64,000 nucleotides of DNA, taken from positions 1 through 64,000 of the forward strand of contig NZ_LUFH02000013.1 in NCBI RefSeq assembly GCF_001586785.1. Reading direction: 5' to 3'. This document shows positions 14,471-33,688 of the stretch, one piece after another. How positions within the stretch are numbered: position 1 is the stretch's first letter; the number at the start of each line of letters is the position of its first letter. The notes below the pieces were generated by a model that saw nothing but the letters and a program-made list of their open reading frames with translations, was not told the origin of the DNA and made no database searches. The position numbers and the translations under genes are program-made. The DNA is from Sphaerospermopsis aphanizomenoides BCCUSP55 (GTDB lineage: Bacteria > Cyanobacteriota > Cyanobacteriia > Cyanobacteriales > Nostocaceae).

Positions 14471-15727
14471 TTAAGGTAAGATATTCCAGGCAAGTGCAAC
14501 TTCTTTTAATTCTTTAAGAATATTCTTAGTTTTATTTAGAATATCTACTGCTAGCTCTGGGTCTTCACCACAACCAGCGTGCAACACATCATTACGTAGC
14601 TTAGTGAGATTATACTTGCCTTTCCAAAGTTGTCTTAACTTTTCTTTTTTACTTTGTGGCACTTTTGACCATTGTGATAAGTGACGTAAATCTCTGACTA
14701 AATTTAATTGTGCTGTTGGGTTGGTAGGTGCTTTTAGCAACTTTTCCATGTCTTCTCGATGTCCTTGTTTCCGAGGATCAAGATTGAAGTAGTAACATAA
14801 TAATGAGGGTAGCCATTCTCTGGCTAAAGATAAAGCTTGAACAACTTGACCCTTATTTACATACCATTCAACCATTCTTAACTGCTTAACCAAAGATGCT
14901 TTAGCATTAGTTTGATATTCTTCTGGGTTAGACAAACCAAAACTTCCATAATCATTTTCTACACGGTTTAGGAGAGTTGTGAATGGTGGTAAACTTTGAG
15001 AGACAATTGATGATACAGCTTTAATATTTTTAGGTAATAATGCAGCTTCTTCCATGACATCTATTGGACGTAGAAGTTGTAACCCCTTTGCTATTTCGTC
15101 AATATTATTTGCTAATTTCTTAGTTGTATGATCACCATTATCTAATAATCCCGCTAGTGCTTGAGCGTTGCCTGTTTTAAGAAATTGGTCTGTTGCTGTT
15201 GTCCATTCTAGTAAGCTGACTATTGGTAATAGGTCAAAAATAGGAGTTTTATTGGTTTCTCTGTTTTTAGCATCTAGCGCACCATAAATTAATCCATCTA
15301 TTTTTACCTGTCTTACTATCCGTAAGTAACTGACAGCAATCAAAGCTACAATTGGTAAAAATCTAAATCCATAAGTTATATCAAATAAAACGCTATCTTC
15401 TTCTTGAAGGCATTCAGTTAATAAAGAAAAAATTTTCCATAAATCTTCAGGGCTGCTACTTTCTGGTACATTCTTAATAGGTTGTAAGTCAACCTTACCA
15501 GCTAATCGTTTTTGTAAAGACGACCAATTAGATTCAGTTCTATCTTCAGGAATCCCCGTTTCAGCTTTATTTGTTAAAAGCACATATAGAACTTGCGGTT
15601 TGTAGAATTTTACCATTGCTTCTTGAAAAAATTCTGTTTCATATTCATCATTACCATCAGGACTAATATAGATAGTTCTATCGTAACCTTTTTTGGGATT
15701 AAATCCTAAAAATGAAATTGCTTTCAT
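14471..15727 (-). CDS. csx1: Csx1-family CARF-HEPN ribonuclease
   Basis: Cyclic-oligoadenylate-activated RNase of type III CRISPR immunity. The N-terminal half (1-170) is a CARF domain of the Csx1/Csx2 class: KAISFLGF at the start and DITYGFR (116-122), a variant of the family DxTHG motif with Tyr for His. The C-terminal half is helical and ends with a HEPN active site R378-N-D-V-L-H383 (RxxxxH). No signal or membrane segment. It is the last gene of the leftward III-A operon, 24 bp after cas6. On ligand made by the Cas10 palm domain it is expected to degrade RNA non-specifically. Confidence 0.88.
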   Translation of the reverse strand: MKAISFLGFNPKKGYDRTIYISPDGNDEYETEFFQEAMVKFYKPQVLYVLLTNKAETGIPEDRTESNWSSLQKRLAGKVDLQPIKNVPESSSPEDLWKIFSLLTECLQEEDSVLFDITYGFRFLPIVALIAVSYLRIVRQVKIDGLIYGALDAKNRETNKTPIFDLLPIVSLLEWTTATDQFLKTGNAQALAGLLDNGDHTTKKLANNIDEIAKGLQLLRPIDVMEEAALLPKNIKAVSSIVSQSLPPFTTLLNRVENDYGSFGLSNPEEYQTNAKASLVKQLRMVEWYVNKGQVVQALSLAREWLPSLLCYYFNLDPRKQGHREDMEKLLKAPTNPTAQLNLVRDLRHLSQWSKVPQSKKEKLRQLWKGKYNLTKLRNDVLHAGCGEDPELAVDILNKTKNILKELKEVALAWNILP

Positions 15728-15751
15728 ACTTACCTCTATTGTGAAAAGATA

Positions 15752-16522
15752 TTACTTATAACTTGAATTAAGCCTAGTCCATCCCATTCCCAACCGTGTC
15801 TTAATTCCCGTACCAGCAAACCGCGCATATTGAACTAATAAATTAGCCACATTTGCCAACAAAGGATCAGCACGTTGGAAAACTTGTAAACTCACATCAC
15901 CAACGAATCCATTAACAAATCCGTTATTTAATTGCCAACTTTTAGTTCTAATTTTGTGATGTTTAAGTAATACTGCATTGCTCAGATAAGCAATTAATTC
16001 ATCACCTCCTAAATAAACAGGTGCAAAACTATTCCACCGTTCTAACCAACTATGAAACATTAATGTAGGAACGGGTAAAGATAATTTTGCTTTACCTTGA
16101 GCAAAGGCTGTAGGTGTGATAAATTGTAAATTATAATTTCTAATTGGTTCAGGTTCATTTCCTACTAATGTTGTATATAGTTCCTCGTAGCTGGTAATTT
16201 CGTCTTCTCGGTTGATAATGTTAAATTTTGCTCCTAAAAATTCTAATGAATCTCCAAGATGAAGGTGAGAGATAGCTTTAGCAGATGTTTCATTTAATCC
16301 AGATAGAGATAATTGATAAAATTCTTCTGGATGGAATGTAATAAAATCTCTGGATGTTAAATAATTACCTGTTATTCCTGAATAGGAAACTGAGGGTATT
16401 ATTTCACTTCCCATTTCTAAGTTTAGTTTTTGATGCAGTTGTCTTATCAGTTCTAACCCATAGGGACGGGGTAAAATTGTTGCTGTGGGTACGGTTAAGG
16501 TAAATGTAGTGTGAATTAGCAT
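15752..16522 (-). CDS. cas6: Cas6 pre-crRNA endoribonuclease
   Basis: Processes the CRISPR transcript inside each repeat. At 256 residues it has the tandem ferredoxin-like (RAMP) layout, FITPTAFAQG (about 135-144) and the C-terminal glycine-rich loop GTGIKTRLGMGW. Several histidines near residues 30 and 75-90 could be catalytic, but I cannot decide which. The start overlaps the stop of csm5 by 7 bp. A second Cas6 with an extra domain lies at 39896-41050, so the two may serve different repeats. Confidence 0.88.
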   Translation of the reverse strand: MLIHTTFTLTVPTATILPRPYGLELIRQLHQKLNLEMGSEIIPSVSYSGITGNYLTSRDFITFHPEEFYQLSLSGLNETSAKAISHLHLGDSLEFLGAKFNIINREDEITSYEELYTTLVGNEPEPIRNYNLQFITPTAFAQGKAKLSLPVPTLMFHSWLERWNSFAPVYLGGDELIAYLSNAVLLKHHKIRTKSWQLNNGFVNGFVGDVSLQVFQRADPLLANVANLLVQYARFAGTGIKTRLGMGWTRLNSSYK

Positions 16523-17913
16523 ACATTTGGTAATAATTCTAAATTAACCCATCCAGGGACAAATTCAATTTCTCCATTATTATTCATTACACTGCGTCTA
16601 GATTTGGGAGCTTCAAATAATGGAGCGCGATTTTTGGGACTGGCACATTCATCTCTAATACCTCTTCTAGTTTCATCATTTAAATGTAAACCAATCGTAG
16701 TTCCTAGCATTCCACTAGCCCATCCTAATCGTAAGTTAAAAGGACACTCAGAATTTTGATAGAATTCATTAATCAGGTCAAAATTGAGGTTGATATTTCT
16801 CCCTTTAACATCCTCTAAGTTATTTTTTATTCTTTGCCAATAATTTCGCTCATGATTCCATTGTTCTTGAGCAAATATTTTGCAGATATTTAAAACTCCT
16901 TCAATATTATGAAATGCTCCTTCAATATTATGAAATGGTATTTTGATTCCATCATTGCGACTAAACCACGAGAGCATACCTGTAGTTTCTATATCTTCCT
17001 CTGAATTATTGTCTAGAGTTAGAGTAAATTCAGTTTCCACATTATGAACCATCTCTGTGTAAATAGAACCACGATATTTAGCTGGATTTTTTTCCTGAAT
17101 AGACGTGGATTCTCTATAATAGCTAGAAATTATAACTTCATCGACACAAGATAAATTCATAGATCCATTTTTCAACAAAGGTTGAGAATCTGTAACTTTC
17201 AAACATCTCATAAAGTCTCTGTTTGATTCGCTCTCAGGATTAAATTCTCTATTTTGATAGGTTAGTAAGAAGTTAGAAAATAAATCCTTCATAAATAATT
17301 CATTTCCTAAAGTTTTTTTACTGTTACCAACCCTTTGAGGTATTTTCAACCTTTCTTGGAGCTTCTGCTCAATATCACTGAGTTGTGTAGGTTTATTTTT
17401 CAGCATATAGTATGCTATTGCAGTCCTAATTGCCCCTTTAATTGATGAACCTGGAATATACAATTTCCCAAAAGCATCCCGAATCATAGGACGTATTTCA
17501 TGATTAATTCTATGTGGAAATGATTTAGGGATAATTCCATAATCAGGAAAGATAGGTTTGTCATCTTCAGATTTTGCAGTAGACCATTGCTTACCTAGTG
17601 CAAGCTCAATGATTTCTGTAACTCTTCGATCATCTTTGTTTTTAATCGCTTGAATATATTGATCTAAAGCTTTTCCCGAATTCAAATCCTTGACTCTTTC
17701 CCAAGGTTTGGGTGTCTGCAAATAACCCCGTTTGTATAAAGCTTTGGCTAATGCTTCCTGATTGGGAATATAAATATTTTCAGGAGTTTGTATATATTCA
17801 AAAGGACTTAACTTTTGTATTTCTCCTCCGATGTGTAATATGGGGCTTTTTAGTTTAATTCTTCGAGATTGGATGAATTGTGGTTTATACAAAACCATGT
17901 CATAGTTAGTCAT
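16516..17913 (-). CDS. csm5: Csm5, RAMP subunit of the type III-A complex
   Basis: Csm5 caps the 3' end of the crRNA in the Csm complex. The 465-residue chain begins with a RAMP strand (RRIKLKSPILHIGGEIQKLSPFEYI) and has the glycine-containing loop LYIPGSSIKGAIRTAIAYYM (about 151-170) typical of Csm5 and Csm3. The C-terminal region contains LRLGWASGMLGTTIGL. Order csm4-csm5-cas6 is usual for III-A loci. It is 7 bp downstream of csm4 and overlaps cas6. Confidence 0.87.
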   Translation of the reverse strand: MTNYDMVLYKPQFIQSRRIKLKSPILHIGGEIQKLSPFEYIQTPENIYIPNQEALAKALYKRGYLQTPKPWERVKDLNSGKALDQYIQAIKNKDDRRVTEIIELALGKQWSTAKSEDDKPIFPDYGIIPKSFPHRINHEIRPMIRDAFGKLYIPGSSIKGAIRTAIAYYMLKNKPTQLSDIEQKLQERLKIPQRVGNSKKTLGNELFMKDLFSNFLLTYQNREFNPESESNRDFMRCLKVTDSQPLLKNGSMNLSCVDEVIISSYYRESTSIQEKNPAKYRGSIYTEMVHNVETEFTLTLDNNSEEDIETTGMLSWFSRNDGIKIPFHNIEGAFHNIEGVLNICKIFAQEQWNHERNYWQRIKNNLEDVKGRNINLNFDLINEFYQNSECPFNLRLGWASGMLGTTIGLHLNDETRRGIRDECASPKNRAPLFEAPKSRRSVMNNNGEIEFVPGWVNLELLPNVC

Positions 17914-17920
17914 GATAACC

Positions 17921-19000
17921 TCATATATTCGAGGGTAATTTAATAGGAAGACTCAAACTAATACCACTGCGATAAATAGGATGCCAATTTCTGTATTTGT
18001 TAAAATTCTCTGGGGTGACATCAGCTAGTTGTCCCACAGGTTGAGTCTGGAAAACTGAACCTTCAGCAAACATTTGCACTGATTTACGGCGTAACTGATA
18101 ACCTGAACTTGAATAAATCCAACCTCCTCGTTTTTGAAGTTCATAGCTAGAACCTTCAATCAAACTTTCCGAAATATTTGATTCCCAAAATAAACTGATA
18201 AGGGAGTAATGAGTTAAGCTTGGAGAATTTAAAACTTTTTGCCAAGTTTCAGATAATTGAGAAAATTCAAACCACTGGAATGTAAACTGCCCAGAACCGC
18301 TAGAACGTTCACCTCCTAACCCTTGTTCTCCTAACAAAGTCAGTGCAGCTTTTACCTGAGTTTCTAGTTTATTGTTGACTTCTGGAAACTGAATAATGAA
18401 ATATAAACCAGACTGTTGTTTAAAGTGTATCAACCCAGTATGATAGAGGTTTGTAGCTTTAGTAATTCTGTCTACAGCAATTTTCGGTAGAAGAGTCTTT
18501 TCAAAGCCTTTCCCATAACTAAAGGTGCAGGCTTTGCGTAAACTACCATTGGATTTATTTGTTGTTTCTTGAATTAATTGGTGACAATCACAATCAACAC
18601 CCAAAGCTCTAAAACCATCTTCTTGATACCAACGATGCCAAACTTCTACAGGTAAGAAGTTCAACTTTTTGTAAGTTTTGAAAAATGCCAAATCATCATC
18701 TTGAGGATAATTACATGGGAATTTCAAAGGTTTGGGAAGATAATCAACAATTTTATCTGCGACTTGTTGATATAAAAAGGTAGAACTGAGACGAAATGGA
18801 GGCTTATTTGGTTGCTCTAAGAATTGCTGTAATAAATTGCTTACTGCATCAGGAAATAATTGAGCATAGGCTGTAATTAAGGCACTAAATAGAGTGTCAG
18901 AACGTACTCTTTCACTAGTTTCTTCAATCCCAATTCCCAATTCTCCAAAGTGAGCAGCATTAGAGCCAAAATTCAGCCTTACGAGTTTCCAGCTATTCAT
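17921..19000 (-). CDS. csm4: Csm4, Cas5-like subunit binding the crRNA 5' handle
   Basis: Csm4 sits at the foot of the complex with Cas10 and holds the 5' tag of the crRNA. The 359-residue protein opens with KLVRLNFGSNAAHFGELGIG and SERVRSDTLFSALITAYAQL, the classic Csm4 N-terminus, and carries the GEQGLGGERSSGSGQF glycine-rich loop (about 231-246). Its ATG shares one base with the csm3 stop (19000), so translation is coupled. Confidence 0.9.
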   Translation of the reverse strand: MNSWKLVRLNFGSNAAHFGELGIGIEETSERVRSDTLFSALITAYAQLFPDAVSNLLQQFLEQPNKPPFRLSSTFLYQQVADKIVDYLPKPLKFPCNYPQDDDLAFFKTYKKLNFLPVEVWHRWYQEDGFRALGVDCDCHQLIQETTNKSNGSLRKACTFSYGKGFEKTLLPKIAVDRITKATNLYHTGLIHFKQQSGLYFIIQFPEVNNKLETQVKAALTLLGEQGLGGERSSGSGQFTFQWFEFSQLSETWQKVLNSPSLTHYSLISLFWESNISESLIEGSSYELQKRGGWIYSSSGYQLRRKSVQMFAEGSVFQTQPVGQLADVTPENFNKYRNWHPIYRSGISLSLPIKLPSNI

Positions 19001-19995
19001 TATGAAGCTCCTGGTAAACTCTTTTGCATTTCATCGCTTAAATTACCAAATTTCTTGAGAATATTTAAAGTATCTTCAGCGGTAATGATTGGCTCTTTAA
19101 ATTCGACACCATCCTCCACTACCTTTCGATATTGTTTCACGTCCCGCCAAAAGCACTTATAATTTTTAAACTTAACTTTGCCATAACCACGTGAACCATG
19201 TCCACCTAAAGCATCATCTTCTAATAATGATAGTGCGATCGCAATATTCCGCAAATCCTCCGCAGCTTCAATGAATGCTTCTTGTTCTGTTTGGCTACCC
19301 TCTGCTTCCACTGTATAAACTAGTTCAAACTCAAATTCTGCACCTGCTGGTACTCGTTCGATTTGACGGGGATTCGCTGCTGCTGTCACCCGATCCAAAC
19401 CGTTTTCCCATTTCCATTCGGTCATGTATAAACCTGTGTCAACTCGTTCTAGTTTTTTAGCTGAGTCTTCACATAAACGACAATCTCGCACAATAATTTT
19501 AGCTGGAGAGTTACGACCCCTTAGAATCTTGCTATATTCCACTCCAGAAAAGTCTTTTGTAACATATTCGTCATTTTGCTTAACTCTGTCTAAATTTTCA
19601 GCTACTGCGTCTGTTGTTTTTACCCAAAAATTAGAACCGCCAGTTGAACCAAATAATCTACTGATAGGACAAGTCCGCGCTCCTGTATATTTAATTGTGT
19701 GTCCATCAAGTTCGGTATATCCATCAACTAAATCATCACTTTCATAACGAAAAGTATCCCGACTTCCAGCACGATTTAAAGGCCTGTTGTGAAATCGTTC
19801 TAGAAGAGAGCGAAGTTTTCCTTTGAGAGAAGAACCAGGTAAGTAAGGATATTGGGTAATTGGATCACGCGCTACAGGTTTATCTAACCCCCCAATATCC
19901 ATTTTTCCTTCACCACCTCCAATATGTAACCCAGTCTCTACAACGAGAATTCCTTCTATACGAAATTTACCAAGTAATTGTTTTTGTTTTAGCAT
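19000..19995 (-). CDS. csm3: Csm3, Cas7-like backbone subunit with target-RNA cleavage site
   Basis: Csm3 multimers form the backbone filament and cut target RNA every six bases. The N-terminus has GLHIGGGEGKMDIGGLDKPV. D38 in the LDKPV motif aligns with the catalytic D33 of Streptococcus thermophilus Csm3, so slicing should be intact. LPGSSLKGKLRSLLERF is the conserved RAMP loop. Length 331 is longer than bacterial homologues (about 220), with the extra residues in the middle (about 60-200). It directly follows csm2 without a gap. Confidence 0.92.
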   Translation of the reverse strand: MLKQKQLLGKFRIEGILVVETGLHIGGGEGKMDIGGLDKPVARDPITQYPYLPGSSLKGKLRSLLERFHNRPLNRAGSRDTFRYESDDLVDGYTELDGHTIKYTGARTCPISRLFGSTGGSNFWVKTTDAVAENLDRVKQNDEYVTKDFSGVEYSKILRGRNSPAKIIVRDCRLCEDSAKKLERVDTGLYMTEWKWENGLDRVTAAANPRQIERVPAGAEFEFELVYTVEAEGSQTEQEAFIEAAEDLRNIAIALSLLEDDALGGHGSRGYGKVKFKNYKCFWRDVKQYRKVVEDGVEFKEPIITAEDTLNILKKFGNLSDEMQKSLPGAS

Positions 19996-20535
19996 TTAAT
20001 TATTCCTATTTGAATTATTTGTTTCAGCAGCTTTGTGATAAGCAATGATAGATTCGATTAAATTTACTAGCCGATAAAAATCAGGTATATCTTTGACTCT
20101 ATCTATCGCCTCTGAAAGCACATCATTCAATGGCTTAACTGGATTTATTTTTTCCTTATCTTTGCGGGCAGTAGCATATACCAATTTAGGTTTAAGCAGA
20201 ACTACCTCTGTTTCAATAGTCGAAAATTTTTCATCTTTGTCTTGAGCAAGTTTTACTTTGAGGCGATTAACAGCATCCAAAAATTTGCGAATTTGGTTTG
20301 TTGTTAATCCTATTTCTTGCAGATATTCTCCCAATTCTTTAGCTTGTTCAACCAAACAACGAATTTCATAATTTCGCAATTCTCCATCCTTTAAAGCTTT
20401 GATAGTTTGAATCATCTTTTGGTCAGCGGTGAGTTGCATTTGTGCCTCTGACCGTTTTTGTGATGTTTCAACTGCTTTAGCTGGTAGAGACTTAGGCTCT
20501 GGTTTAGAGTTGAATTTTTTTGGTGGTTGTATCAT
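19996..20535 (-). CDS. csm2: Csm2, small (Cas11) subunit of the III-A complex
   Basis: The small helical subunit lining the inner filament. The C-terminal 120 residues carry the family pattern, including LTTNQIRKFLDAVNRLK and LLKPKLVYATARK, close to the LRPKLAYAAGR-type motif. Residues 1-35 are basic and proline-rich, so this protein (179 aa) is longer than typical Csm2. The start at 20535 overlaps the end of cas10 by 32 bp; an internal ATG at residue 33 is an alternative start that removes the disordered extension. Confidence 0.85.
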   Translation of the reverse strand: MIQPPKKFNSKPEPKSLPAKAVETSQKRSEAQMQLTADQKMIQTIKALKDGELRNYEIRCLVEQAKELGEYLQEIGLTTNQIRKFLDAVNRLKVKLAQDKDEKFSTIETEVVLLKPKLVYATARKDKEKINPVKPLNDVLSEAIDRVKDIPDFYRLVNLIESIIAYHKAAETNNSNRNN

Positions 20536-22879
20536 TTGTTTGATTACGATTTAATAGTTCAATCCACGTAGCAATAGCCAAAAAATAACGTGCGTTATAA
20601 GGACTCATTAACGATTTCCGAACCGGAGTAAAGCTATCATTATTGAGTATTTCACTAGGTAATCTTGCTAACGTATAGGCTATTTTAGGTAAGTGTAAAT
20701 AGTAACGGATATCATCAATTTCACTTTCATATTGCTCCTTTTTACGTTTACTCTCAATTTCTTGAATTTTCTGCTCTTGCATTTGAGCAGTATCTAGAAG
20801 ATTACGAACAAAGCTGCGAGCATAATTGATTTCAATATTCTGTTCTTGTATTTTCTTTACAAATGGGAGGATACCAAATAAATCAAGCCTTGTATTTAAC
20901 CCTAAATATTGTTTAATTTTATAATCGAATAATTTAATATCTGAAACATTAACATTTTCTGATCCTAACCACTCACTCCACTTGAAGGCTTTTCCAAATA
21001 GCCCTAAACTATTTCTACCATTTGCTTTAGCAGCATCTTCAGCGTCACCTGATGATTTCGCAGCTTGATAAAGCGGGAATTTAATATCATCAATACTAAT
21101 TCCGCCTGATATCGTAATATCTGGATTATTCCCTGTATAGGCTCGAAAACACTGGTAAATATCACAAGCAAATTCTACGATTTCATTCCATGCTCCACTT
21201 ATGAATAAATCATCACCTCCTGCGTAAATGAATAGTAAATGATCTCGCTTTTCTCTAGTTAAATATTTAGCATTTTTTAGAACCGTGATATTTTGTTGTT
21301 CTTGAGGCTGGATAAAATTAGCATAACGGGTTTCTGCTAAACTATTGAGGTAAACTTTAAAAAAATAACTCATTTGGCGGGAAAGTCCAGCAATTCTAGG
21401 CAAAGTCCGATTGTTTTTATTCAACCCTTCTGCAAAAATTCTTCCTAGTTTGTCTACATCCATTCGCAAATAACCAACTCTGGGAATTGCACCCACTATC
21501 TCTGCTGATTTCGCCATTTCTTCAGCACGGATAAATCTTTTTTCTTCTTCATTCTTCTTGCCATAATTTCCTAACAATAAAAGACTAGTATTTTTTGATT
21601 TATAATTTTCCAAAATCCAATCATTAATTAGGATAATTTTTTCGTCATTTTTAGCTAAACTCAGTGCTTCCTCTCGTGTTTTACAAAGATAGTAGTAGTA
21701 CCCTGGAATATAAATTCTTTCTATATGTTTATCTACACTACCTTTGACATTTGACCTTTTAGACCGTAGTAATGCTTTAACATTAAATAAGCGTTCTCCT
21801 AGTTCAAACATATTGCGGCACATCCAACAAGCGCGAGAAGAATCATTATTTCCTTGAATTAATGGTTTTAAACTGGGTAAGTCATCTCTGTGACAAACTT
21901 TACATGGTTGATAACTCGGATTTGGTTGGATAATAAGATTTATTTCTTGATTAAACTTACGAGCCTTTTGCTCTGCTAAGTCTTTAGTGAGTTTTGTCCA
22001 ATATTCAGCAAAATTTTTCTCTTTGATAGCTTGAGTAGGTACAGATAAGCTATCAATAGCTAAAAAAAGTTTACCTTTAAAGCTTTTCAACAGCCATTTA
22101 TTAAATTTTTTGCAAATTTTATTTACTGATTTCTTAACTTGCTGTAAGTCAGTAGAAGCAATTACATAAAAATTTCCTCCACCCGCATAAATTATATTAG
22201 TATTTGGTAAGTTTAACTCTTCTAGTAATTGTTGTACTACTTCTTCTGTCACCAATTCTAAATAAAAACTCCTAGCCCTTAAAGATTTAAGCGCACCATC
22301 AGCAGAAATAGTATAAATAAATTTTTGAATCCCTGATAAATCACCAGCAATTAAGCTAATTTCCTCAGCAGGATTGTCAATTAAAGCTGCTGCTACTGCA
22401 GCTGTAGTTCTTGCCATGTCTACCAAAGCTACATCAGATTCTCCAAAGCTGAGACATGAACCAAATTTTTCTAATATGAGCATTAATAAAGAAAGATTTT
22501 GCCAATTATCTTTGAGATACTTGTCAAGTTCCTGATTAATTTCAGCTTTGAAACCTTCCTGTGCTTCTTGATCAGGTTTGTAATTCAATGGATAAGGTAT
22601 TGTCGGATAGTCTTCGTCTTTATTTTTAATAGCTGCTAGTGCATGGTAATGAGTTTCTGATGGTTCTTGAATTGGGGTATCAGATAAATTTACACGGTCA
22701 AACAACAAGCGTAATACTCCAACTTCTGTATTTTCATTCCAACCTAATATTTTCTTTGCTCTTGTAACTTCTATATACTCTTTATTATCTGGAGAAGGAT
22801 AATCACATTCAGCCCATTTTGCTAAAGCTGCGATCGCTTGTTGAATAACCTGTAATGCTATTTGAGAACTTGTCACCAT
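20504..22879 (-). CDS. cas10: Cas10/Csm1, large subunit of III-A; palm GGDD present, HD motif absent
   Basis: Signature subunit that makes cyclic oligoadenylates when target RNA is bound. Visible in order: a palm-1 motif GDLSGIQKFIYT (179-190), a zinc-ribbon with C326-x2-C329 and C351-x2-C354, MDVDKLG in the second palm, and the active GGDD at 554-557 (IYAGGDDLFISG). The N-terminal 150 residues, where family members carry an HD nuclease (LHDIGK), have no HD pair. Single-strand DNase activity is therefore not expected, while signalling should work. Length 791 is normal. It is the first gene of the leftward csm operon. Confidence 0.92.
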   Translation of the reverse strand: MVTSSQIALQVIQQAIAALAKWAECDYPSPDNKEYIEVTRAKKILGWNENTEVGVLRLLFDRVNLSDTPIQEPSETHYHALAAIKNKDEDYPTIPYPLNYKPDQEAQEGFKAEINQELDKYLKDNWQNLSLLMLILEKFGSCLSFGESDVALVDMARTTAAVAAALIDNPAEEISLIAGDLSGIQKFIYTISADGALKSLRARSFYLELVTEEVVQQLLEELNLPNTNIIYAGGGNFYVIASTDLQQVKKSVNKICKKFNKWLLKSFKGKLFLAIDSLSVPTQAIKEKNFAEYWTKLTKDLAEQKARKFNQEINLIIQPNPSYQPCKVCHRDDLPSLKPLIQGNNDSSRACWMCRNMFELGERLFNVKALLRSKRSNVKGSVDKHIERIYIPGYYYYLCKTREEALSLAKNDEKIILINDWILENYKSKNTSLLLLGNYGKKNEEEKRFIRAEEMAKSAEIVGAIPRVGYLRMDVDKLGRIFAEGLNKNNRTLPRIAGLSRQMSYFFKVYLNSLAETRYANFIQPQEQQNITVLKNAKYLTREKRDHLLFIYAGGDDLFISGAWNEIVEFACDIYQCFRAYTGNNPDITISGGISIDDIKFPLYQAAKSSGDAEDAAKANGRNSLGLFGKAFKWSEWLGSENVNVSDIKLFDYKIKQYLGLNTRLDLFGILPFVKKIQEQNIEINYARSFVRNLLDTAQMQEQKIQEIESKRKKEQYESEIDDIRYYLHLPKIAYTLARLPSEILNNDSFTPVRKSLMSPYNARYFLAIATWIELLNRNQTNDTTTKKIQL

Positions 22880-23502: not shown

Positions 23503-23582
23503 GATTTGTATCTCTAACCAATGACTACATCATACATGACAGTGGAAGTAGCCTATTCCAAGGTATTCTCTCCGGAAGTGAT

Positions 23583-25278: not shown

Positions 25279-25445
25279 TGTTTATATTGGTTGGGTTGTA
25301 TCTGTATTTTTTCACATCCAGGTGTCATAGCAATTCACGAAAATCATATTTTTTTGGTGTTGATGTTTGAAAATATGATTTAGTCTCACGCAAAGGCGCA
25401 AAGGCGCAAAGAAAAAGAAAGGTATTTTTTTGAGAAAGGGAAGTT

Positions 25446-25877
25446 TTTTTAATCCCCTTGCGGGGAAGTGGTTATGAAAAACTATTAAAGTAAAGATACC
25501 TACAGATAAGAAATCTGAACTAGCAGGTTTCAATCCCCTTGCGGGGAAGTGGTTATGAAAAACAGGATTATTTAGAAACAAGGCATCAGGATTCGATACA
25601 GAGGAGTTTCAATCCCCTTGCGGGGAAGTGGTTATGAAAAACCCTCTGTCAAAAAAGACGGTAGAATTTTTACTCTGTGGGGAGGTTTCAATCCCCTTGC
25701 GGGGAAGTGGTTATGAAAAACGTGACCGATCTCAATGATGATTTAGATGAGATCCAGTAGTTTCAATCCCCTTGCGGGGAAGTGGTTATGAAAAACCTGG
25801 ATGATTAAGAATCATACTAAGAGCTTAGACGCGCTGAACGGTTTCAATCCCCTTGCGGGGAAGTGGTTATGAAAAAC
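25446..25877 (-). CRISPR. CRISPR array, 6 repeats and 5 spacers, read leftward
   Basis: Repeats of 37 bp start at 25446, 25527, 25606, 25685, 25760 and 25841; spacers are 44, 42, 42, 38 and 44 bp. On the plus strand each repeat runs GTTTCAATCCCCTTGCGG then GGAAGTGGTTATGAAAAAC, with a CCCC-TTGC-GGGG hairpin. I read it on the minus strand because there the repeat ends in GGGGATTGAAAC, the usual ATTGAAAC 5' handle, and because the leftmost copy (25446) is degenerate where the minus-strand handle would be, as expected of the leader-distal repeat. The same direction serves the csm operon. No spacer has an obvious match inside the window. Confidence 0.97.
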
Positions 25878-26070
25878 CCTACACTTATGAAACCCTTGTC
25901 ACATTTAGCTTTTAAAGTGCGACTGCACCGAGCTACTGAAACAACAATGTGACAATCAAAACAAGTATTAATTTTTTAAGGTTCAGATAGCTGTATTGAG
26001 GCAATAAAAACAGAATAAAACAAAAACCTGAAGATGTCAACTCAAAAAACCAAACTTTTCTTACAATTAC
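25878..26070 (-). promoter_or_regulatory. probable CRISPR leader
   Basis: AT-rich, gene-free DNA right of the array, upstream in the inferred direction of transcription. It holds a perfect 10-bp inverted repeat, TTGTCACATT (25896-25905) and AATGTGACAA (25946-25955), 40 bp apart, which could bind a dimeric regulator. Next to the first repeat a partial echo of the repeat start (GGGTTTCATAAGTG on the minus strand) is visible. Confidence 0.6.
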
Positions 26071-26826: not shown

Positions 26827-27846
26827 ATGCTGATGACTGAACCTGCTTTACGCTTGTTATTAAGTGAAACCCTGATGGTAGAAGCTTTACAATATCAGAT
26901 GTTATTGATTGAATTAACAAAAAGCGATCGCATCATTGAACCACAAGACTTGATAGACTTAGAACTACCTGCGGGAATTGATACAACTGGTGGTGTGGTA
27001 ATTTCTGGACGCGCACCGATTTGGTTATATGGCTATCTTATCCATGAATTACATCCTACAGCTTGGGTGGCTTGTTATGATCCTCGCATGGGTGCGGTAG
27101 TGGTAGCTACTCACACTCGGTTAGTGCATATCGGACAAGTAATCAAAATTATTCCTCCCAACGGTAGAACACAGGAAGGGAATTCTACACCAGAAGAATG
27201 GTCTAATTATTTTCAGAATCTTCAGGAATTGAGAGCAAAAAATACGTCTATTTCTCCTCTTCCACAACAGGAAAAATTGTGTCCAGCTTTGATGGTTGTC
27301 GGTCCTCCTGACAGTGGTAAAAGTGTATTTTCCCATGCGTTGTTTCAAGCTTTGCTATCAGAAAATCCTGATATTTATTTACAACGCGCACATTGGGATG
27401 GTGAGGGAAATTATGTGTTAGAAATGGGTACAGAGGCTACAGATGAAGAAATTGAAGCTTTTAAAGCACGTAATCGCGGTTCTCTGACAGAGAGGTTTTT
27501 TCCCTACCAAGCGCAAGCTATTCTTCAGTTACGACGACAGAAGTCTCTGGTAATTGTGGATGTGGGTGGGATGGTACAACCAGAAAAATTACCGCTGTTG
27601 GAAGTTTGTACACATTATTTAATCATTAGTTCCCGACTGGAAGCGGTGGATGGTTGGCATGATTTTTGTGGTAGTTATGCTAATTTAATACCAGTAGCTG
27701 TTATTTTCAGCACTCTCACAGAAGTTGAAATAGTTCACACCTGTGAACCTTATGTAGAAATTACTTGTGGTGCTTGGGTACGAGGTAAAGCGCGTGCTGT
27801 TCCAGAGATTTTACTAGAACGAGTAAGAAAGATTGTGAATGGCTAG
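26827..27846 (+). CDS. csx3: Csx3 domain fused to a P-loop ATPase (Csx3-AAA)
   Basis: Residues about 10-110 form a Csx3-like unit (GGVVISGRAPIWLYGYLIHE, then WVACYDPRMGAVVVATH and LVHIGQVI), parallel to the stand-alone Csx3 at 23197. Residues about 150-339 are a P-loop NTPase with Walker A GPPDSGKS (about 160-167) and a Walker B-like strand KSLVIVDVGG. The fusion is known from cyanobacterial type III loci, but the job of the ATPase half is not established. Ring-nuclease activity towards cyclic tetra-adenylate is expected from the Csx3 half. It is 42 bp upstream of the III-D cas10 and begins the operon. Start may be ATG 26827 or 26833. Confidence 0.85.
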   Translation: MLMTEPALRLLLSETLMVEALQYQMLLIELTKSDRIIEPQDLIDLELPAGIDTTGGVVISGRAPIWLYGYLIHELHPTAWVACYDPRMGAVVVATHTRLVHIGQVIKIIPPNGRTQEGNSTPEEWSNYFQNLQELRAKNTSISPLPQQEKLCPALMVVGPPDSGKSVFSHALFQALLSENPDIYLQRAHWDGEGNYVLEMGTEATDEEIEAFKARNRGSLTERFFPYQAQAILQLRRQKSLVIVDVGGMVQPEKLPLLEVCTHYLIISSRLEAVDGWHDFCGSYANLIPVAVIFSTLTEVEIVHTCEPYVEITCGAWVRGKARAVPEILLERVRKIVNG

Positions 27847-27888: not shown

Positions 27889-30198
27889 ATGACAGGTATG
27901 AGTTCGGTGGCGATCGCAATTAGTTGGTGTTTAGCTTGGGGTAATGGACGGGAACCGCAGAATAAAGAAGTTATCCAGCAAATGCGGGAAGCTTTAAAAA
28001 ATGATGAAGAATTTCCAGAGGAAGTGAATAAGTTAGTTCAGCAAGCGCAAGAATTAGACGGGTTGAAATTTCCTAATACTGTAGAAGAATTAAAGCAACT
28101 AACAGAAAAATATCCTCAATTTTGGGAATCGGAAATTGGTTTAGTTTATGGTGGTGTAACTAAGGTTAAACAGTATGTATTTGAATCAGCAAAAATTCAA
28201 GAAGTGCGTGGTGCATCTGGTTTATTAGATAGAATTAATTTAGTTGATTTACCAGCATTTTTCAATCAAATTTATCAACCAGCATCCTCTAATGAAAGAG
28301 ATAAAAACTTATATACAATTCAATGTAATAATGTAAAAAAATGGTTAAACGATAATTTTAATCAAGACTACGATTTATCAGAAGTTCTCATTCCCCAATT
28401 AATCATCTATTCAACAGGTGGAAACATTCTGGCTTTTTGTCCTGCTGCGTATGTTCATGACTTAGCTGATGCTATCGAAAAACGTTATACTCATGAAACA
28501 TTAACAGCTAATTCCTGTGCGGTTGGTGATACATTTAGACTATTAGAAATTCGGTTTGGATTACTCAAAGAAAAAATAGAAGATACACCTTGGTTAGATT
28601 GGTATCAAAAGAATTACCAAAAACCAATTGTTCAAGCTTATTTCGGATTTCCTAAAAATGAAAATGAACGTTTAGAAGTATTTCAAAACCGCAAAAGCTT
28701 TAATGAAATCACCACCAAACTAGCCATTTTATTTAATCAACGACGTAGCGGTAATGATATTCCCGGACGACATACCAACCGTCGATATCCAGTCATGTTT
28801 GAAACCCATCCTTATTTAGTTAGAGATGGAAGTGATCGACGTTCTACTATTATGAGAGTAGGTGAAGGTGAATTACCAAGAGAAACCTATTTTTCGGAAG
28901 CATCAGTTAGAAAATATCTTGTTGGTGATAGAACCAAAGATGGAGATACAGAAGAACCAACATGGTATATTGATTCTAAATTAGAATGGCGTAGAGGTAT
29001 ATTTGAAAGTTGGGTAAAAAGATTTGATAGATTTTTAGAAAAGCATGACTATTTAAAAACCAAATATTATGGAAATATCAAACCTAAAGATGTAGAAATT
29101 CCTAAAACATTAACTCATGTATCCAATGCTAGTAATGGCTTTGTAGCCTATATTTACGCAGATGGTAATAACATGGGTGGATATATCCAAAAAATTCGCA
29201 CTCCTCAGAAATATCAAAAATTTAGTGCAGACGTAAGTAAAGCTACAGAAAAGGCTGTTTTTCACGCAATAGCAGAAAACTTACATCCTCATGTTTTGAA
29301 GAATTACAATAATGATGAAGATCATAGATTTAAAAGTGGAGATTTAGTGCATCCATTTGAAATCATTACCATCGGTGGTGACGACATTTTCATCATTGTT
29401 CCTGCTAACAAAGCCTTAGAAATTTCTCAAATGATAGGAGAGAAATTTGAAGAAATAATGATTGACAGATCAGATGAAATAACAGATTATAGAATTGAAG
29501 CAAATAAACCTGTAGATAAGAGAAAAATTCACCGTTATCAACCACAAACAGCTAAAAACTCAGAATGTAAATTGAGTACATCCATAGGAGTTTTAATTAC
29601 TGCTGTTAACACACCAATTTACTACGCCAAAGATTTAACAGAACAATTACTAAAATCCGCCAAAGAAAAGGCCAAGAAATTAAAGAAAGTAGAATATCAC
29701 GGTGGAACAATAGACTTTCTAACTCTAAAATCAGTTAGCATGATTGCATCTAATGTTAAAGACTTCCGTAGTGAAGCGTTAATTATCGAAACTTCTCCTA
29801 AATTAAGACTTTATGCAGCACCCTATACATTACATGAAATAGGAGGATTATTAAAATCCATTGCAGCATTGAAAAAAGCCAAGTTCCCCAAATCACAACT
29901 TTATCAAATTCGTAGTTTATTAGAACGAGGTAAACACACAGCTATCCTTAACTATCGTTATTTCCGAGTCAGACTTAAACAAGGTAAAGCTGAATTAAAA
30001 AGAGATTTTGAAGAAGTTTGGTGTTTACCCAAAGATGAAAATAATAATGGTAACTTAGCACCTTGGATGTATGATGCAGAGGAAAAAATCTACGAAACAA
30101 TTTGGCGCGATATTGTTGATATTTATGAATTTGTAGAAGAACCAGAAAGTGAAGAATCAGATAAATCAGAAAATTTAACAGCGGGGGTTGAGTCATGA
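27889..30198 (+). CDS. cas10: Cas10, large subunit of a type III-D-like complex; GGDD present, HD absent
   Basis: A second Cas10 (769 aa), closer in layout to Cmr2/III-D forms than to Csm1. It has VTKVKQYVFESAKIQEVRGA (about 90-109), the counterpart of the Cmr2 IREMRGAS block. YADGNNMGGYI (423-433) lies in the palm, and GGDD is at 496-499 (TIGGDDIFIIV). There is no N-terminal HD pair; the chain begins directly with helices. Cyclic-oligoadenylate synthesis is expected and DNA cleavage is not. The C-terminal tail is acidic. Its stop overlaps the next start (ATGA at 30195). Confidence 0.9.
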   Translation: MTGMSSVAIAISWCLAWGNGREPQNKEVIQQMREALKNDEEFPEEVNKLVQQAQELDGLKFPNTVEELKQLTEKYPQFWESEIGLVYGGVTKVKQYVFESAKIQEVRGASGLLDRINLVDLPAFFNQIYQPASSNERDKNLYTIQCNNVKKWLNDNFNQDYDLSEVLIPQLIIYSTGGNILAFCPAAYVHDLADAIEKRYTHETLTANSCAVGDTFRLLEIRFGLLKEKIEDTPWLDWYQKNYQKPIVQAYFGFPKNENERLEVFQNRKSFNEITTKLAILFNQRRSGNDIPGRHTNRRYPVMFETHPYLVRDGSDRRSTIMRVGEGELPRETYFSEASVRKYLVGDRTKDGDTEEPTWYIDSKLEWRRGIFESWVKRFDRFLEKHDYLKTKYYGNIKPKDVEIPKTLTHVSNASNGFVAYIYADGNNMGGYIQKIRTPQKYQKFSADVSKATEKAVFHAIAENLHPHVLKNYNNDEDHRFKSGDLVHPFEIITIGGDDIFIIVPANKALEISQMIGEKFEEIMIDRSDEITDYRIEANKPVDKRKIHRYQPQTAKNSECKLSTSIGVLITAVNTPIYYAKDLTEQLLKSAKEKAKKLKKVEYHGGTIDFLTLKSVSMIASNVKDFRSEALIIETSPKLRLYAAPYTLHEIGGLLKSIAALKKAKFPKSQLYQIRSLLERGKHTAILNYRYFRVRLKQGKAELKRDFEEVWCLPKDENNNGNLAPWMYDAEEKIYETIWRDIVDIYEFVEEPESEESDKSENLTAGVES

Positions 30199-30905
30199 TT
30201 AAATTAGAACAAATAACTAACTCAACCGAAACTAAAACCATTACCGCTATCATTGACACAGCATTATGTATAGGTGCTGGTGGTTCTTCCGGTTCACTCG
30301 CAGATAAACCCATAGTTCGCAACGCAGAAGGAAATTTACTCATTCCTGGTTCACAATTAAAAGGACGTTTACGCCATGAATGTGAGAAAATAGCCAGAGG
30401 TTTAAAATGGGATATTTGCTATTCTCCCAACCCGCAAACAATGTGTCCCCAAAGAGCGGGATTAGATGGTAATTTTGAAAGAGAAGAGTATAAAATATCA
30501 GAAGATGACAAAAACCATCATTGTTTAATTTGTCAAATCTTTGGAAATCCAGTTTTACCTTCCCGCATCATAGTAGATGATTTAATTTGTGAAGAAGATC
30601 CTGATAACTTACCAGAAATTATCCGTCCTGGTGTAACTATCAACCGTCGTCGTCGCACTTCAGAAGAAAGCAAACTTTACTTTTTAGAAACATCACCAGC
30701 AAATACAAAACTGAGGTTTAAAGGTGATATTCACCTATTAAATGCACCTCCTTATACAGCACCATTAATTTTAGCCGGATTGAAACATATTAACGCTTTA
30801 GGTGGAAGTAAATCAGCCGGTTTAGGTTGGTTAACTTGGGAATTACCAGATTTATCTGTAGAACAAGCAGCATGGGAATTTTTAGCTAAAGGAAGTAGAG
30901 AATAA
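30195..30905 (+). CDS. Csm3-like Cas7 RAMP, III-D subunit 1
   Basis: A backbone RAMP of 236 residues. CIGAGGSSGSLADKPIVR places D37 in the ADKPIV motif where Csm3 has its RNA-cleaving aspartate, so it is probably active. PGSQLKGRLRHECEKIA is the RAMP loop, and cysteines at C-x(n)-CLIC (about 76-115) may bind zinc as in other Csm3. GGSKSAGLGWLTWE is the C-terminal glycine-rich loop. Overlaps both neighbours by a few bases. Confidence 0.88.
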   Translation: MIKLEQITNSTETKTITAIIDTALCIGAGGSSGSLADKPIVRNAEGNLLIPGSQLKGRLRHECEKIARGLKWDICYSPNPQTMCPQRAGLDGNFEREEYKISEDDKNHHCLICQIFGNPVLPSRIIVDDLICEEDPDNLPEIIRPGVTINRRRRTSEESKLYFLETSPANTKLRFKGDIHLLNAPPYTAPLILAGLKHINALGGSKSAGLGWLTWELPDLSVEQAAWEFLAKGSRE

Positions 30906-32128
30906 TGAAAAAAATTGAGTTAGAAATTAAGGCTTTATCACCTTTAGCAATTGGACACAAGAAACCAGGAGGTAATATTAGTGAAGTTGAAGATTGTATT
31001 CCTGGTTCTGTAATTCGTGGTGCAGTTGCTAGTCAGATATTGAAACAAACAAATCAAGAAATTGAACCAGATGATGATTTTTATAAATTGTTTTTGGGTG
31101 GAAATCCGGCAATTTTCCAAAATGCTTATCCAGAAGATGCTAAAATTAAATCCGAAGTTATAGTCATACCTACAACTGCGTTAAGTTCTAAAATAAAACC
31201 TGGATTTAAAACCAAAGGGGATGGTGTTTTTGACACTTTAATAGACCGCTTTTGTGCAGAAAATTATGGTCAAGTGTATGATTTTAATAGTCCGAGAGAG
31301 GGTAATGAAGTAGAAGGAGATAGAGTAGATAATTTTCCTGGTTTTTATAGTCGAAAAAGCAGTAAATATTCTAAGAACTCTGCTAAAACTCGTCTATTAA
31401 CTAGAGTAGGAATAAACCGAAGACGTGCTACTTCTGAAGAAAGGGTACTTTATAGTATTGAAGTATTAAATGAATCAAAAGAACAGAAAAAGGAAGCTGT
31501 CATATACACAAGCAAAATTTTAGCACCTGATGATTTAGCTAATACTCTGCAAACATTTATTCATAATCATCAAGATAGTTTCCGTTTAGGAGGTGCAAGT
31601 TCACGTGGTTTAGGAAAGATAAAGATGACAGCCAAACCACCTCAAGAGATTGAATCAAAAGTCAATTATCAAATAGATCAATTTAATCAAAAATTGCGTA
31701 AACGTTGGGATGAATGGAGTAATATTTTTGGTACAGTTTCCGACTTACCCGCAAATCGTATTTATTTCACCATTGATTTACAATCGGATGCAATTTTAAC
31801 AGAAAATTGGCAACGCACAACAGTAATTTCCGAAACAATGCTAAAACAGTTTACAGGGGTGAAGGATTCATCTTTGCAACTTCACACTGCTTATAGTAGC
31901 TATGACTATCGTTCTGGTTGGAATGCTGCTTGGGGTTTGATGAAAGATGTGGAGTTAGTGACAAATAGAGGAGGTGTGTATTTATTTAGTACAGACAATA
32001 AAGACTCGTGGTTACAAGCTTGGGAAGATTTGGAAATGTATGGAATAGGCGATCGCACTTCCGAAGGTTTTGGACAGGTGCAAATCTGCAATGAGTTTCA
32101 TTTAGTGTTAAGAGAGGAAGCAGTATGA
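30905..32128 (+). CDS. csx10: Csx10, Cas5-like RAMP of type III-D
   Basis: Csx10 is the III-D marker subunit thought to hold the crRNA 5' handle. The 407-residue chain starts KKIELEIKALSPLAIGHKKP, has IPGSVIRGAVASQIL (about 33-47), the VGINRRRATSEERVLYSI block (about 170-187), and a glycine loop LGGASSRGLGKIKM (about 228-241). A second RAMP-like half ends with YGIGDRTSEGFGQVQI. Placement between a Csm3-like gene and a small helical subunit supports III-D over III-B. Confidence 0.85.
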   Translation: MKKIELEIKALSPLAIGHKKPGGNISEVEDCIPGSVIRGAVASQILKQTNQEIEPDDDFYKLFLGGNPAIFQNAYPEDAKIKSEVIVIPTTALSSKIKPGFKTKGDGVFDTLIDRFCAENYGQVYDFNSPREGNEVEGDRVDNFPGFYSRKSSKYSKNSAKTRLLTRVGINRRRATSEERVLYSIEVLNESKEQKKEAVIYTSKILAPDDLANTLQTFIHNHQDSFRLGGASSRGLGKIKMTAKPPQEIESKVNYQIDQFNQKLRKRWDEWSNIFGTVSDLPANRIYFTIDLQSDAILTENWQRTTVISETMLKQFTGVKDSSLQLHTAYSSYDYRSGWNAAWGLMKDVELVTNRGGVYLFSTDNKDSWLQAWEDLEMYGIGDRTSEGFGQVQICNEFHLVLREEAV

Positions 32129-32535
32129 TTGAATTATCAACTCAACAACAGTTACAAATTCAAAAAGGTATACGTTTAGCTGAGGATGATCTCGTTATCT
32201 GGATTAAAAGCGCCTTGGATAAAACAAGTTATGGAGACTTAGAAGAATCTCAATTTCGTAACTTACTCCGTGTCGCTGACACTACAGATAGTGCAGAAGT
32301 AATTAAGAACTTTATCTGTTATCAAGTTGGACGTGATAAAAAATGGGGACGAGGTAAAGGTTCTTTAGCTGAGAAAATCATTGAAGATATTGATAATAAT
32401 ATCAAGAAATCCGCTCAAATAATTGGTGAATGTTGCGATGCTGATTTTAAACCTATTTGGTTAGAACTAATTCGCCGTTATTTGGGATATGGCGCACGTC
32501 ATTTGAAGTTTAAGCGTGACGGAAATGCTGCTTAA
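32125..32535 (+). CDS. Cas11-like small subunit of the III-D complex
   Basis: A 136-residue, all-helical protein. Its position after csx10, length and the ending LELIRRYLGYGARHLKFKR match small-subunit (Csm2/Cas11) proteins of III-D loci. No catalytic motif. The start overlaps the csx10 stop (ATGA). Confidence 0.75.
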   Translation: MIELSTQQQLQIQKGIRLAEDDLVIWIKSALDKTSYGDLEESQFRNLLRVADTTDSAEVIKNFICYQVGRDKKWGRGKGSLAEKIIEDIDNNIKKSAQIIGECCDADFKPIWLELIRRYLGYGARHLKFKRDGNAA

Positions 32536-32572
32536 GTAAAATATTTTTCGTAAATTGAAGGTAAAAACAGAA

Positions 32573-33688
32573 ATGAGAAACACACTAATTTGCACTGTTG
32601 GAACAAGTCTATTTGGCAATATCAGAAATTCTGAGGAATCAATAAAAAAAGCATTTGAAGATAAAAATTGGAATCAATTAGCATTGTTATTAATTGAACA
32701 AGAAAATACAGCGCGGGTTTGCGGTGCAGAAATAAATTCTATTACCAGTATTTGCAGTAAAAATCTCCTGACATCCAGAATACGCTTGATTTTTTTAGTT
32801 TCAGATACCGAAGAGGGTAAGAATACAGGTCAAGTGTTAAAGCTATACTATAGCAATAAAAAAAATTCTTTAAAGTTTGATGAAGTTGATTATCGCATAC
32901 TTGAAGGTTTACGTGATAATGATGTTAAGGCTTTTAAACAACAGGGGTTAAAAAATTTAGTCAAAGAAATTAGCACAGAAGTAAGAAAATTTACTCCAGA
33001 AACAATAGCCATTAATGCAACTGGTGGTTATAAAGCACAGATATCATTTGCTGGAATGATTGGACAAGCATTAGAAATTCCTGTTTACTATTTATTTGAG
33101 AAATTTTCAGAAGTGATTGAGTTACCACCACAACCAGTAGCCTTAGATTTAGCATTTTGGTTGAATAATTATCTTTTGTTTGCACAACTTGAGGACGAAC
33201 AAATTATAGAAGAATCAAAACTAGAAGGTAATCTAGATAGTGAATACTTATATTCACTTATTGATAAAGAAACTGAAGGAGAAACCAATGTAGTTAGTCT
33301 TTCAGCAATGGGTGTTTTGTTTAATGAACGTTCTCGATTACAATTTGCTAAACAAGAAAATACTATTCTTTCTCTCATTCCTCAAGACGATACTGAACCA
33401 AGTCGTAAAATTATTAACTTAAGAGATGATCATGGTAAGGATATAATTCAGGCATTTTCTGAGAGAGTATGTCAATCTCCTTATGTGAAGAAAGTAATCA
33501 ATTCTCTGCCTTTTAATCCCAAACGTAGTAACCCAATTCGACGTACAACAGATAATGGAATAGTAGAATTCGTATTAACTTGGACAGATACAGGATTAGG
33601 TATATGTATTGAAACAACAGGAAGAAATAAAGCAGAGACAAATACTATAGCCATATACCTACAAAAAAAATTTGCGGAGAATAATTAA
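32573..33688 (+). CDS. CARF protein (APE2256-like) with a RelE-like C-terminal domain
   Basis: Start taken at ATG 32573, preceded by GAAGGT; the TTG at 32555 is poorer. The N-terminal 190 residues are a CARF domain of the APE2256/PF09651 class: NTLICTVGTSLFGN at the start and INATGGYKAQISFAGMIGQA (about 147-166). This class includes the Crn1 ring nucleases. The C-terminal third (about 290-371) reads as a small RelE-like fold: a helix FSERVCQSPYVKKVINSLPF, then FNPKR, then strands VEFVLTWTD and GICIETTGRNK. CARF-RelE fusions have been predicted for type III loci, and here RNA or ribosome-dependent cleavage on cyclic-oligoadenylate binding is inferred. Without the fold match it could be a ring nuclease. 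Confidence 0.7.
   Translation: MRNTLICTVGTSLFGNIRNSEESIKKAFEDKNWNQLALLLIEQENTARVCGAEINSITSICSKNLLTSRIRLIFLVSDTEEGKNTGQVLKLYYSNKKNSLKFDEVDYRILEGLRDNDVKAFKQQGLKNLVKEISTEVRKFTPETIAINATGGYKAQISFAGMIGQALEIPVYYLFEKFSEVIELPPQPVALDLAFWLNNYLLFAQLEDEQIIEESKLEGNLDSEYLYSLIDKETEGETNVVSLSAMGVLFNERSRLQFAKQENTILSLIPQDDTEPSRKIINLRDDHGKDIIQAFSERVCQSPYVKKVINSLPFNPKRSNPIRRTTDNGIVEFVLTWTDTGLGICIETTGRNKAETNTIAIYLQKKFAENN

Follow-up and report, generated by a model that had tools for sequence, protein, structure and literature searches.

One of the closest described counterparts of the locus studied here is the III-D/III-Dv system (CRISPR2) of Synechocystis sp. PCC 6803, which combines a GGDD-bearing Cas10 that has no working HD domain with Csx1, a CARF7-RelE protein and Csx19, and which shares its genome with a Csx3-AAA gene. 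Its Cas10, with a truncated and disrupted HD pocket, makes a cyclic oligoadenylate (cOA) that activates the effector SyCsx1, and a palm mutation stops this activation (PMC11026444); SyCsx1 is activated by cyclic tetra-adenylate (cA4), and SyCsm6, the CARF7-RelE protein, degrades cOA of more than one kind (PMC9676260). We use profile searches and alignments to study a 64,000-nucleotide stretch of Sphaerospermopsis aphanizomenoides BCCUSP55 (contig NZ_LUFH02000013.1, positions 1 to 64,000; 'the window' below), from a genome of 6.1 Mb in 254 contigs, in which two type III modules stand back to back at 14471-37753 (to 41050 if a second Cas6 is counted). We find that these are very probably a III-A and a III-D signalling module, neither of which cuts DNA through an HD domain, that the HD loss is old, and that a cOA alarm would here be joined to effectors and off-switches.

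The III-A operon runs leftward from 22879 and is complete (csm1, csm2, csm3, csm4, csm5, cas6, csx1), with csm1 to csm5 together marking the subtype. The III-D operon runs rightward from 26827 (csx3-AAA, cas10d, cas7, csx10, cas11, the CARF7 gene, two cas7-type genes, csx19, another cas7-type gene and csx21) and is identified by csx10 together with csx19. Between the operons lie a short csx3, a WYL regulator, a six-repeat array and an open reading frame (ORF) of 23S-rRNA-IVP type. An earlier reading made from the letters of the window (the sequence-only reading) had counted two Cas10 proteins in one locus; a whole-genome PF22335 search indeed finds two Cas10 genes, both here, with the correction that they belong to different subtypes, III-A (csm) and a divergent III-D.

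Comparison with described systems shows where this arrangement is familiar and where it departs from them. Synechocystis III-Dv has fused Cas7, Cas5 and Cas11 subunits and a III-B system as its type III companion, whereas the window has separate genes, a III-A neighbour and a Csx3-AAA gene directly upstream of cas10d. The closest named relatives of the window Csm1 are cyanobacterial. A plasmid of Nostoc sp. UHCC 0302 (NZ_CP151101) carries a similar III-A module (csm1-csm5, cas6, Csx3 and a TIGR03985 WYL gene), and its Csm1, 55.6% identical, aligns from residue 1 and so has the same short N-terminus; unlike the window, it has no III-D genes annotated in the 38 kb viewed, and a I-D system follows. 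The III-D module on a plasmid of Allocoleopsis franciscana PCC 7113 (NC_019740) keeps a similar order from cas10 via csx10 to cas6, with two crn3 genes and a WYL gene near, but no III-A genes are annotated in the 32 kb viewed, two extra ORFs follow csx7, and TniQ/TnsA-type genes lie between WYL and cas10. Another genome of the same family (G035, contig C75) has divergent III-A and III-D modules with a long array between them, although there the modules are 14.8 kb apart, the repeat is different and the CARF proteins are 24-29% identical. A survey of titles and the opening lines of abstracts (full texts were not covered) turned up no paper specifically on III-A and III-D modules paired in a single cyanobacterial locus. 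What stands side by side here is two different, ordinary RNA-sensing CRISPR systems of the common cyanobacterial HD-less kind. The locus offers a clean natural example of two type III systems, both purely signalling, side by side, and therefore a place to test the sharing of one cA4 pool by two Cas10 complexes; the idea of signalling between loci has already been raised (PMC11229360).

The two Cas10 proteins

The proteins that carry this interpretation are:

20504..22879, reverse strand: Csm1/Cas10a, 791 amino acids, GGDD at 554-557, no HD site (TIGR02578, 551 bits)
27889..30198, forward strand: Cas10d, 769 amino acids, GGDD at 496-499, no HD site (TIGR02577, 123.8 bits)

We aligned each with its relatives from a search of 291 genomes: the Csm1 set (n=31) holds the window protein, L001 (the one relative found in a scan of genome contigs) and the 29 best of 38 genomes matching Csm1, and the Cas10d set (n=30) holds the window protein and the 29 best of 50 genomes matching Cas10d. 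A scan of viral contigs found no further relatives. The GGDD cyclase motif is present in every Csm1 (31/31) and every Cas10d (30/30), that is, in all 61 aligned proteins including both from the window.

The N-termini were compared in several ways. The TIGR02578 match of the window Csm1 begins only at profile position 92. In an alignment of seven reference Csm1 N-termini, four with the HDxGK block and three without it (an eighth, from a truncated gene, was left out), the block falls at match column 15 (4/7), and the cyanobacterial Csm1 profile, from residue 30 onward, pairs with reference columns 72-267 (probability 98.9), its first 29 residues being unaligned. Upstream of palm1, no HD dipeptide is shared among the Csm1 proteins (5 of the 31 have one, at five different places), and none of the 30 Cas10d proteins has one. 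The palm1 motif of the window Cas10d starts at residue 88. With 12 sequences considered for each Cas10, neither N-terminus has an invariant histidine ahead of palm1. The profile start, the N-terminal profile comparison, the dipeptide counts and the position of palm1 bear out the claim that both proteins keep GGDD without an HD site. The wording that no HD pair is visible needs one amendment, as there is an HD dipeptide in Cas10d, at 190-191, past the palm1 start and rarely shared (2 among the variants listed).

It had also been proposed that this island itself dropped DNA cleavage, and that such a loss with such equipment is unusual. Neither idea is supported for this group, since the HD-less N-terminus is common to all aligned cyanobacterial relatives (31 Csm1 and 30 Cas10d, window included). 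In a phylum sample of 292 genomes, 18 score above the TIGR02578 cut-off, and 17 of these begin to match at profile positions 64 to 93; the exception, which matches from position 3 and has LLHDIGK, comes from a genome outside the class. HD-less Cas10 is the norm among the cyanobacterial sequences examined and, because HD-less N-termini run throughout the aligned sets and nearly all phylum-sample matches start late, the loss is judged to be old and not specific to the island. The locus accordingly carries little weight as evidence for an unusual HD loss. More generally, 65% of III-A loci have HD, against 3% of III-D loci (PMC11229360); the window Csm1 lacks this common, though not required, III-A feature, and the window Cas10d is HD-less as is usual for III-D.

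Could an HD-type nuclease persist in cryptic form in a Cas10 N-terminus, or as a separate gene? HD_4-family genes do occur near WYL/Csx3 genes on two cyanobacterial plasmids (L155:14657-15229; L156:5057-5644). We rejected the protein near WYL as a split-off Cas10 nuclease: the L155 copy is HD_4 by Pfam, a family we take to be SpoT-type, and of 45 loci scanned for such a gene, 2 had it; the window did not, though no other part of its genome was searched. With no shared HD, and no invariant histidine before palm1 in the N-termini, a persisting nuclease is extremely improbable.

Effectors, ring nucleases and the proposed circuit

The remaining parts of a signalling circuit are the following:

14471..15727, reverse strand: Csx1, CARF2-HEPN ribonuclease effector of the III-A operon (PADLOC CARF2--CARF_HEPN, 331.6 bits)
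32555..33688, forward strand: CARF7 (APE2256) protein with RelE-like/DUF2103 tail (PF09651, 124.1 bits; PADLOC CARF_DUF2103 461.7 and CARF_RelE 229.6 bits)
23197..23502, reverse strand: short divergent Csx3 (PF09620, 24.1 bits, cut-off 21; no NCBIfam match)
26827..27846, forward strand: Csx3-AAA, Crn3 domain and P-loop domain (TIGR02579, 108.9 bits; PADLOC Csx3-AAA, 303.4 bits)
19000..19995, reverse strand: Csm3, aspartate D38 in GGLDKPV (TIGR02582, 218.9 bits; aligned with GGIDNPV of a solved Csm3)
30195..30905, forward strand: III-D Cas7 (a) (RAMPs, 80.8 bits)
33692..34555, forward strand: III-D Cas7 (b), Csx7-type (TIGR02581, 250.5 bits)
34696..35640, forward strand: III-D Cas7 (c) (PADLOC Csm3, 207.4 bits)

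Family matches confirm the two CARF effectors (Csx1 with HEPN and an APE2256-CARF protein) and the two Csx3 proteins named in the sequence-only reading. Csx1 has both CARF2 and HEPN, the latter with R378-x4-H383, and this R and H are found in 16/16 aligned proteins. The sensor domain of the CARF7 protein is well recognised, both by PF09651 and by PDB 8phb (E 1.7e-10 over residues 73-258), a record of the APE2256 family that we take to be Cami1. The RelE-like character of its tail comes from PADLOC model names: CARF_RelE matches to residue 365, and the best model is named CARF_DUF2103. Csx1 and Cami1 occur together in 54 loci (PMC11229360).

On the off-switch side, Csx3-AAA has all five AfCsx3 residues (H57, H60, D69, R71, H80), as expected of Crn3. 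More than one ring nuclease is found in 10 of 242 loci, about 4% (PMC12409355), and to this extent the combination deserves the attention it was given; two csx3-type genes also stand together in ten other cyanobacterial loci (L090, L096, L106, L113, L115, L155, L156, L171, L177, L182), however, and the pairing is therefore common among cyanobacterial relatives. In three such loci (L090:11298-12260, L096:11519-12508, L115:6718-7635) there is a paralogue of the short Csx3, fused to AAA, in which D69 is kept and the equivalents of H57, H60 and H80 are lost. Each of these paralogues adjoins an intact short Csx3; such a couple is possibly a natural half-site pair, by analogy with the published experiment in which H60A and D69A were mixed.

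Aspartates are conserved in the Cas7 subunits: Csm3 D38 in at least 95% of 28, Cas7a D37 in at least 95% of 22, and also Cas7b D35 and Cas7c D31 and D36. Given the role of Cas7 aspartates in cutting target RNA (PMC11026444), these positions are expected, by their location, to be the predicted sites of target-RNA cutting.

Taken together, we propose that CRISPR RNA (crRNA) would guide each complex to invader RNA, upon which the Cas10 palm would make cOA, most likely cA4. The messenger would activate the HEPN ribonuclease Csx1 and the CARF7-RelE protein, and RNA would be cut, presumably also by the RelE-like tail. Degradation of cA4 would fall to Csx3-AAA, possibly helped by the short Csx3 and by the CARF7 domain, and once the Cas7 aspartates had cut the bound target the signal would end. 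We infer that the signals of both complexes are pooled, as we do which Cas6 serves which complex. The proposal of a second-messenger island with built-in off-switches is in this form the best reading of the locus, since no HD site is present, the cyclase motif is kept and there are two CARF and two Csx3 proteins; what lacks support is the idea that the island itself did the dropping. Mechanistically, nothing new is needed, given that the HD-disrupted III-Dv complex already makes cOA that activates SyCsx1.

The choice of cA4 deserves comment. The messenger is not readable from sequence, Csx1 has DITYG and so departs from the usual motif, SyCsm6 acted on more than one cOA, and among the PADLOC models that the CARF7 protein matches are some called Csm6, a label that enzymes of cyclic hexa-adenylate (cA6) also bear. 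Yet the effector and ring nuclease families present here are linked to cA4 in print (PMC11229360, PMC9676260, PMC12409355), ring nucleases accompany cA4 effectors (PMC12409355), and no CorA or NucC model appears among the matches listed for the operon proteins. A different ring size, or SAM-AMP, seems quite unlikely.

Arrays and Cas6

Three features bear on how guides are supplied:

25442..25878, reverse strand: CRISPR array, 6 repeats and 5 spacers (putative leader at about 25878-26060)
15752..16522, reverse strand: Cas6 of the III-A operon (PF10040, 65.7 bits; own-genome search)
39896..41050, forward strand: second Cas6 (PF10040, 71.3 bits), with a weak C-terminal sigma70-r4-like match (PF08281, 23.4 bits, under the cut-off of 25.7)

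The array is probably read leftwards because the crRNA-sense repeat ends ATTGAAAC. A second array, of 13 repeats, lies on contig C55 (L086:5444-6427); its repeat differs by one base from that of the window array, and the two leaders are 97.8% identical over 183 bases. The two ORFs that flank it were checked by Pfam and are not cas genes. A PF10040 search of the genome finds three Cas6 genes, two in the window and a third next to the single Cas1 match of the genome; the I-D marker Csc2 is part of that third locus. The suggestion that both complexes share one array lacks support: a second array with a near-identical leader lies elsewhere in the genome, on a different contig, and there are two Cas6 genes in the window. 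Relatives of the second Cas6 stand, in several cases, beside arrays. A search for plasmid targets of the window array gave 7 records at 67-74% identity, which we rejected as targets and read as repeats of other arrays.

Points against the interpretation, and co-occurrence of the modules

Several observations weigh against two working, signalling-only modules. The AlphaFold2 models are unusable (pLDDT, the predicted local distance difference test, is 38 for Csm1 from a two-sequence alignment and 31 for Cas10d from a single sequence), so the absence of HD rests on sequence profiles. Spacers of both arrays gave no match in a phage search. In Csx1 the DxTHG motif reads DITYG instead of DITHG, the H being present in 12/16 aligned proteins, although the DxTHG model TIGR02549 still scores above its cut-off (26.4 vs 21 bits). 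The short Csx3 has four of the five Crn3 residues and a one-residue insertion, with K at the R71 position in 16/16 aligned proteins. A Pfam search of the CARF7 protein found no match in the tail, and SyCsm6, its characterised relative, showed no ribonuclease activity in vitro (PMC9676260). Some of these parts could therefore be altered or inactive. Finally, III-A and III-D co-occur within the family no more often than by chance, which speaks against mutual dependence.

This last point comes from 217 genomes of the same family, searched at E 1e-30 with fragments and the contaminated assembly G584 counted: csm1 is found in 57/217, cas10d in 83/217 and both in 26, against 21.8 expected (p = 0.12, not corrected for relatedness). 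A sample of the order gives both in 12/291 genomes against 4.7 expected (p = 6e-4, again uncorrected), a count that omits the weak csm1 hit G043, the fragment-only cas10d of G256 and G040 and 11 weak cas10d hits and keeps other broken genes. We do not take this excess as functional coupling and read it as shared ancestry.

Of the 26 genomes with both genes, 13 hold them on different contigs. In the other 13 the genes share a contig, at a distance of up to 25 kb in 6 genomes and of 99 kb to 4.9 Mb in 7. The near pairs are those of the window (5.0 kb), G035 (14.8), G210 (9.9), G528 (8.9), G495 (15.1, with a csm1 fragment) and G687 (15.3); draft assemblies bias this same-contig count toward near pairs, and of the eight pairs on megabase-size contigs (G058, G274, G466, G495, G559, G639, G669, G672) only G495 is near. 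Orientations are divergent, tandem and convergent. The proximity looks like repeated juxtaposition and not like one conserved machine.

Still, the two modules might form one obligatory machine, with arrays shared through a shared Cas6, a single cA4 pool and mutual dependence. The genome has no further Cas10 match (PF22335), its two arrays share a leader, nearly half of the family's same-contig pairs (6 of 13) are no more than 25 kb apart, G035 repeats the divergent order with an array between, and both effector families are of cA4 type in print (PMC11229360). Against this, 88 of the 114 family genomes that match either Cas10 have only one, there being no cas10d match in 31 of the 57 csm1 genomes and no csm1 match in 57 of the 83 cas10d genomes; the wide spacing of 7 of the 26 pairs, the varying orientations, the non-significant co-occurrence and the two Cas6 genes of the window point the same way, and we find an obligatory machine doubtful. 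The converse is that one of the modules has fallen silent or is in decay, and that the island is an accident of defence-gene clustering. Decay does occur in relatives: the G058 csm1 (L124:8270-9921) lacks about residues 379-623, the palm2/GGDD part, and in G495 (L179:10608-12196) csm4 comes straight after a csm1 fragment, and neither csm2 nor csm3 was found. In the window, though, every ORF of both operons is open and the examined residues of Cas10, Csx1, Csx3-AAA and Cas7 are kept, which makes this unlikely, and two working signalling modules remain the reading we favour.

Mosaic ancestry

The less ordinary result of this locus is its mosaicism, not the HD loss. In a housekeeping comparison of eight genomes by topA and ffh, the nearest is G058 (91% for topA, 91% for ffh) and G506, which belongs to a more distant genus, is further (86%, 87%). 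One part of the III-D operon has a different affinity:

28401..32150, forward strand: segment of apparently foreign ancestry, most of cas10d, cas7a and csx10 (96.1% to G506 vs 69.8% to G058)

This segment, which also takes in the first bases of cas11, matches G506 (L171) over all 3750 bases, and G058 (L118) over 3578 aligned bases. Around it the operon is mostly closer to G058: csx3-AAA (86.9%), the CARF7 gene (87.9%) and csx19 (77.2%) have no match in G506, and the rest of cas11 (92.7% to G058 vs 74.0% to G506), cas7c (84.0% vs 77.0%) and cas7d (87.8% vs 72.0%) follow suit. Two details fit a single clean swap poorly: cas10d starts with 0.5 kb that resembles neither genome closely (74.4% and 69.5%), and cas7b, where it aligns, is more similar to G506 (87.1% over 681 of 864 bases) than to G058 (82.6%).

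The III-A operon is likewise a patchwork, with csm3, csm2 and parts of csm1 nearest to different relatives. Its cas6 (88.2%) and the short csx3 (85.3%) are close to G058, whose csm genes reach 66-71% where alignable, csm2 being unalignable; G546 (ffh 83%) is 87.7% identical in csm3 and 84.1% in csm2 and only about 67% in csm4 and csm5; and G506 has no csm1 match in the family search. The closest relative shifts along csm1, with G546, G613 and G256 among the nearest for csm3, csm2 and parts of csm1 (19000-22879).

On these identities, recombination with other genera most simply explains the pattern: it would have replaced blocks of both complexes and left cas6, csx3 and WYL in place. The segment may be an assembly chimera, but its frames are open and it differs by about 4% from G506. 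That a mosaic boundary falls within cas10d suggests that parts of a type III complex can be exchanged below the operon level and leave operons that are open and apparently working. We further offer, as a speculation more likely wrong than right, a single two-sensor cA4 circuit in which a fixed chassis (Cas6, arrays, WYL and the Csx3 genes) would receive heads (Cas10-Cas7a-Csx10; Csm2-Csm3 and parts of Csm1) exchanged repeatedly between cyanobacterial genera by homologous recombination, perhaps escaping anti-CRISPR proteins while effectors and off-switches stay.

Remaining features of the locus

The ORF positions given earlier are correct. The end then set at 33688 splits the III-D operon, which runs on to 37753, with the second Cas6 beyond it. 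The other features are:

16516..17913, reverse strand: Csm5 (TIGR01899, 68.9 bits, cut-off 38.3)
17921..19000, reverse strand: Csm4 (TIGR01903, 304.9 bits)
19996..20535, reverse strand: Csm2 (PF03750, 103.7 bits)
23812..25278, reverse strand: WYL-domain regulator (TIGR03985, 360 bits)
26177-26533: 23S rRNA-intervening-sequence-type protein ORF, between the array and Csx3-AAA
30905..32128, forward strand: Csx10, the III-D Cas5 (TIGR02674, 423.4 bits, cut-off 177.3)
32125..32535, forward strand: III-D small subunit, Cas11/Csm2 (PADLOC PDLC01011, 205.8 bits)
35637..36092, forward strand: Csx19 (PADLOC, 154.5 bits)
36096..37130, forward strand: III-D Cas7 (d), TIGR03986-like (137.3 bits, under the curated cut-off of 161.35)
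37133..37753, forward strand: Csx21 (PADLOC, 300.9 bits)

The gap between the short csx3 and the WYL gene (23579-23705) holds about 18 copies of a TGATAAT heptamer, and related heptamers lie near 23.8 kb and at 26.1-26.8 kb.

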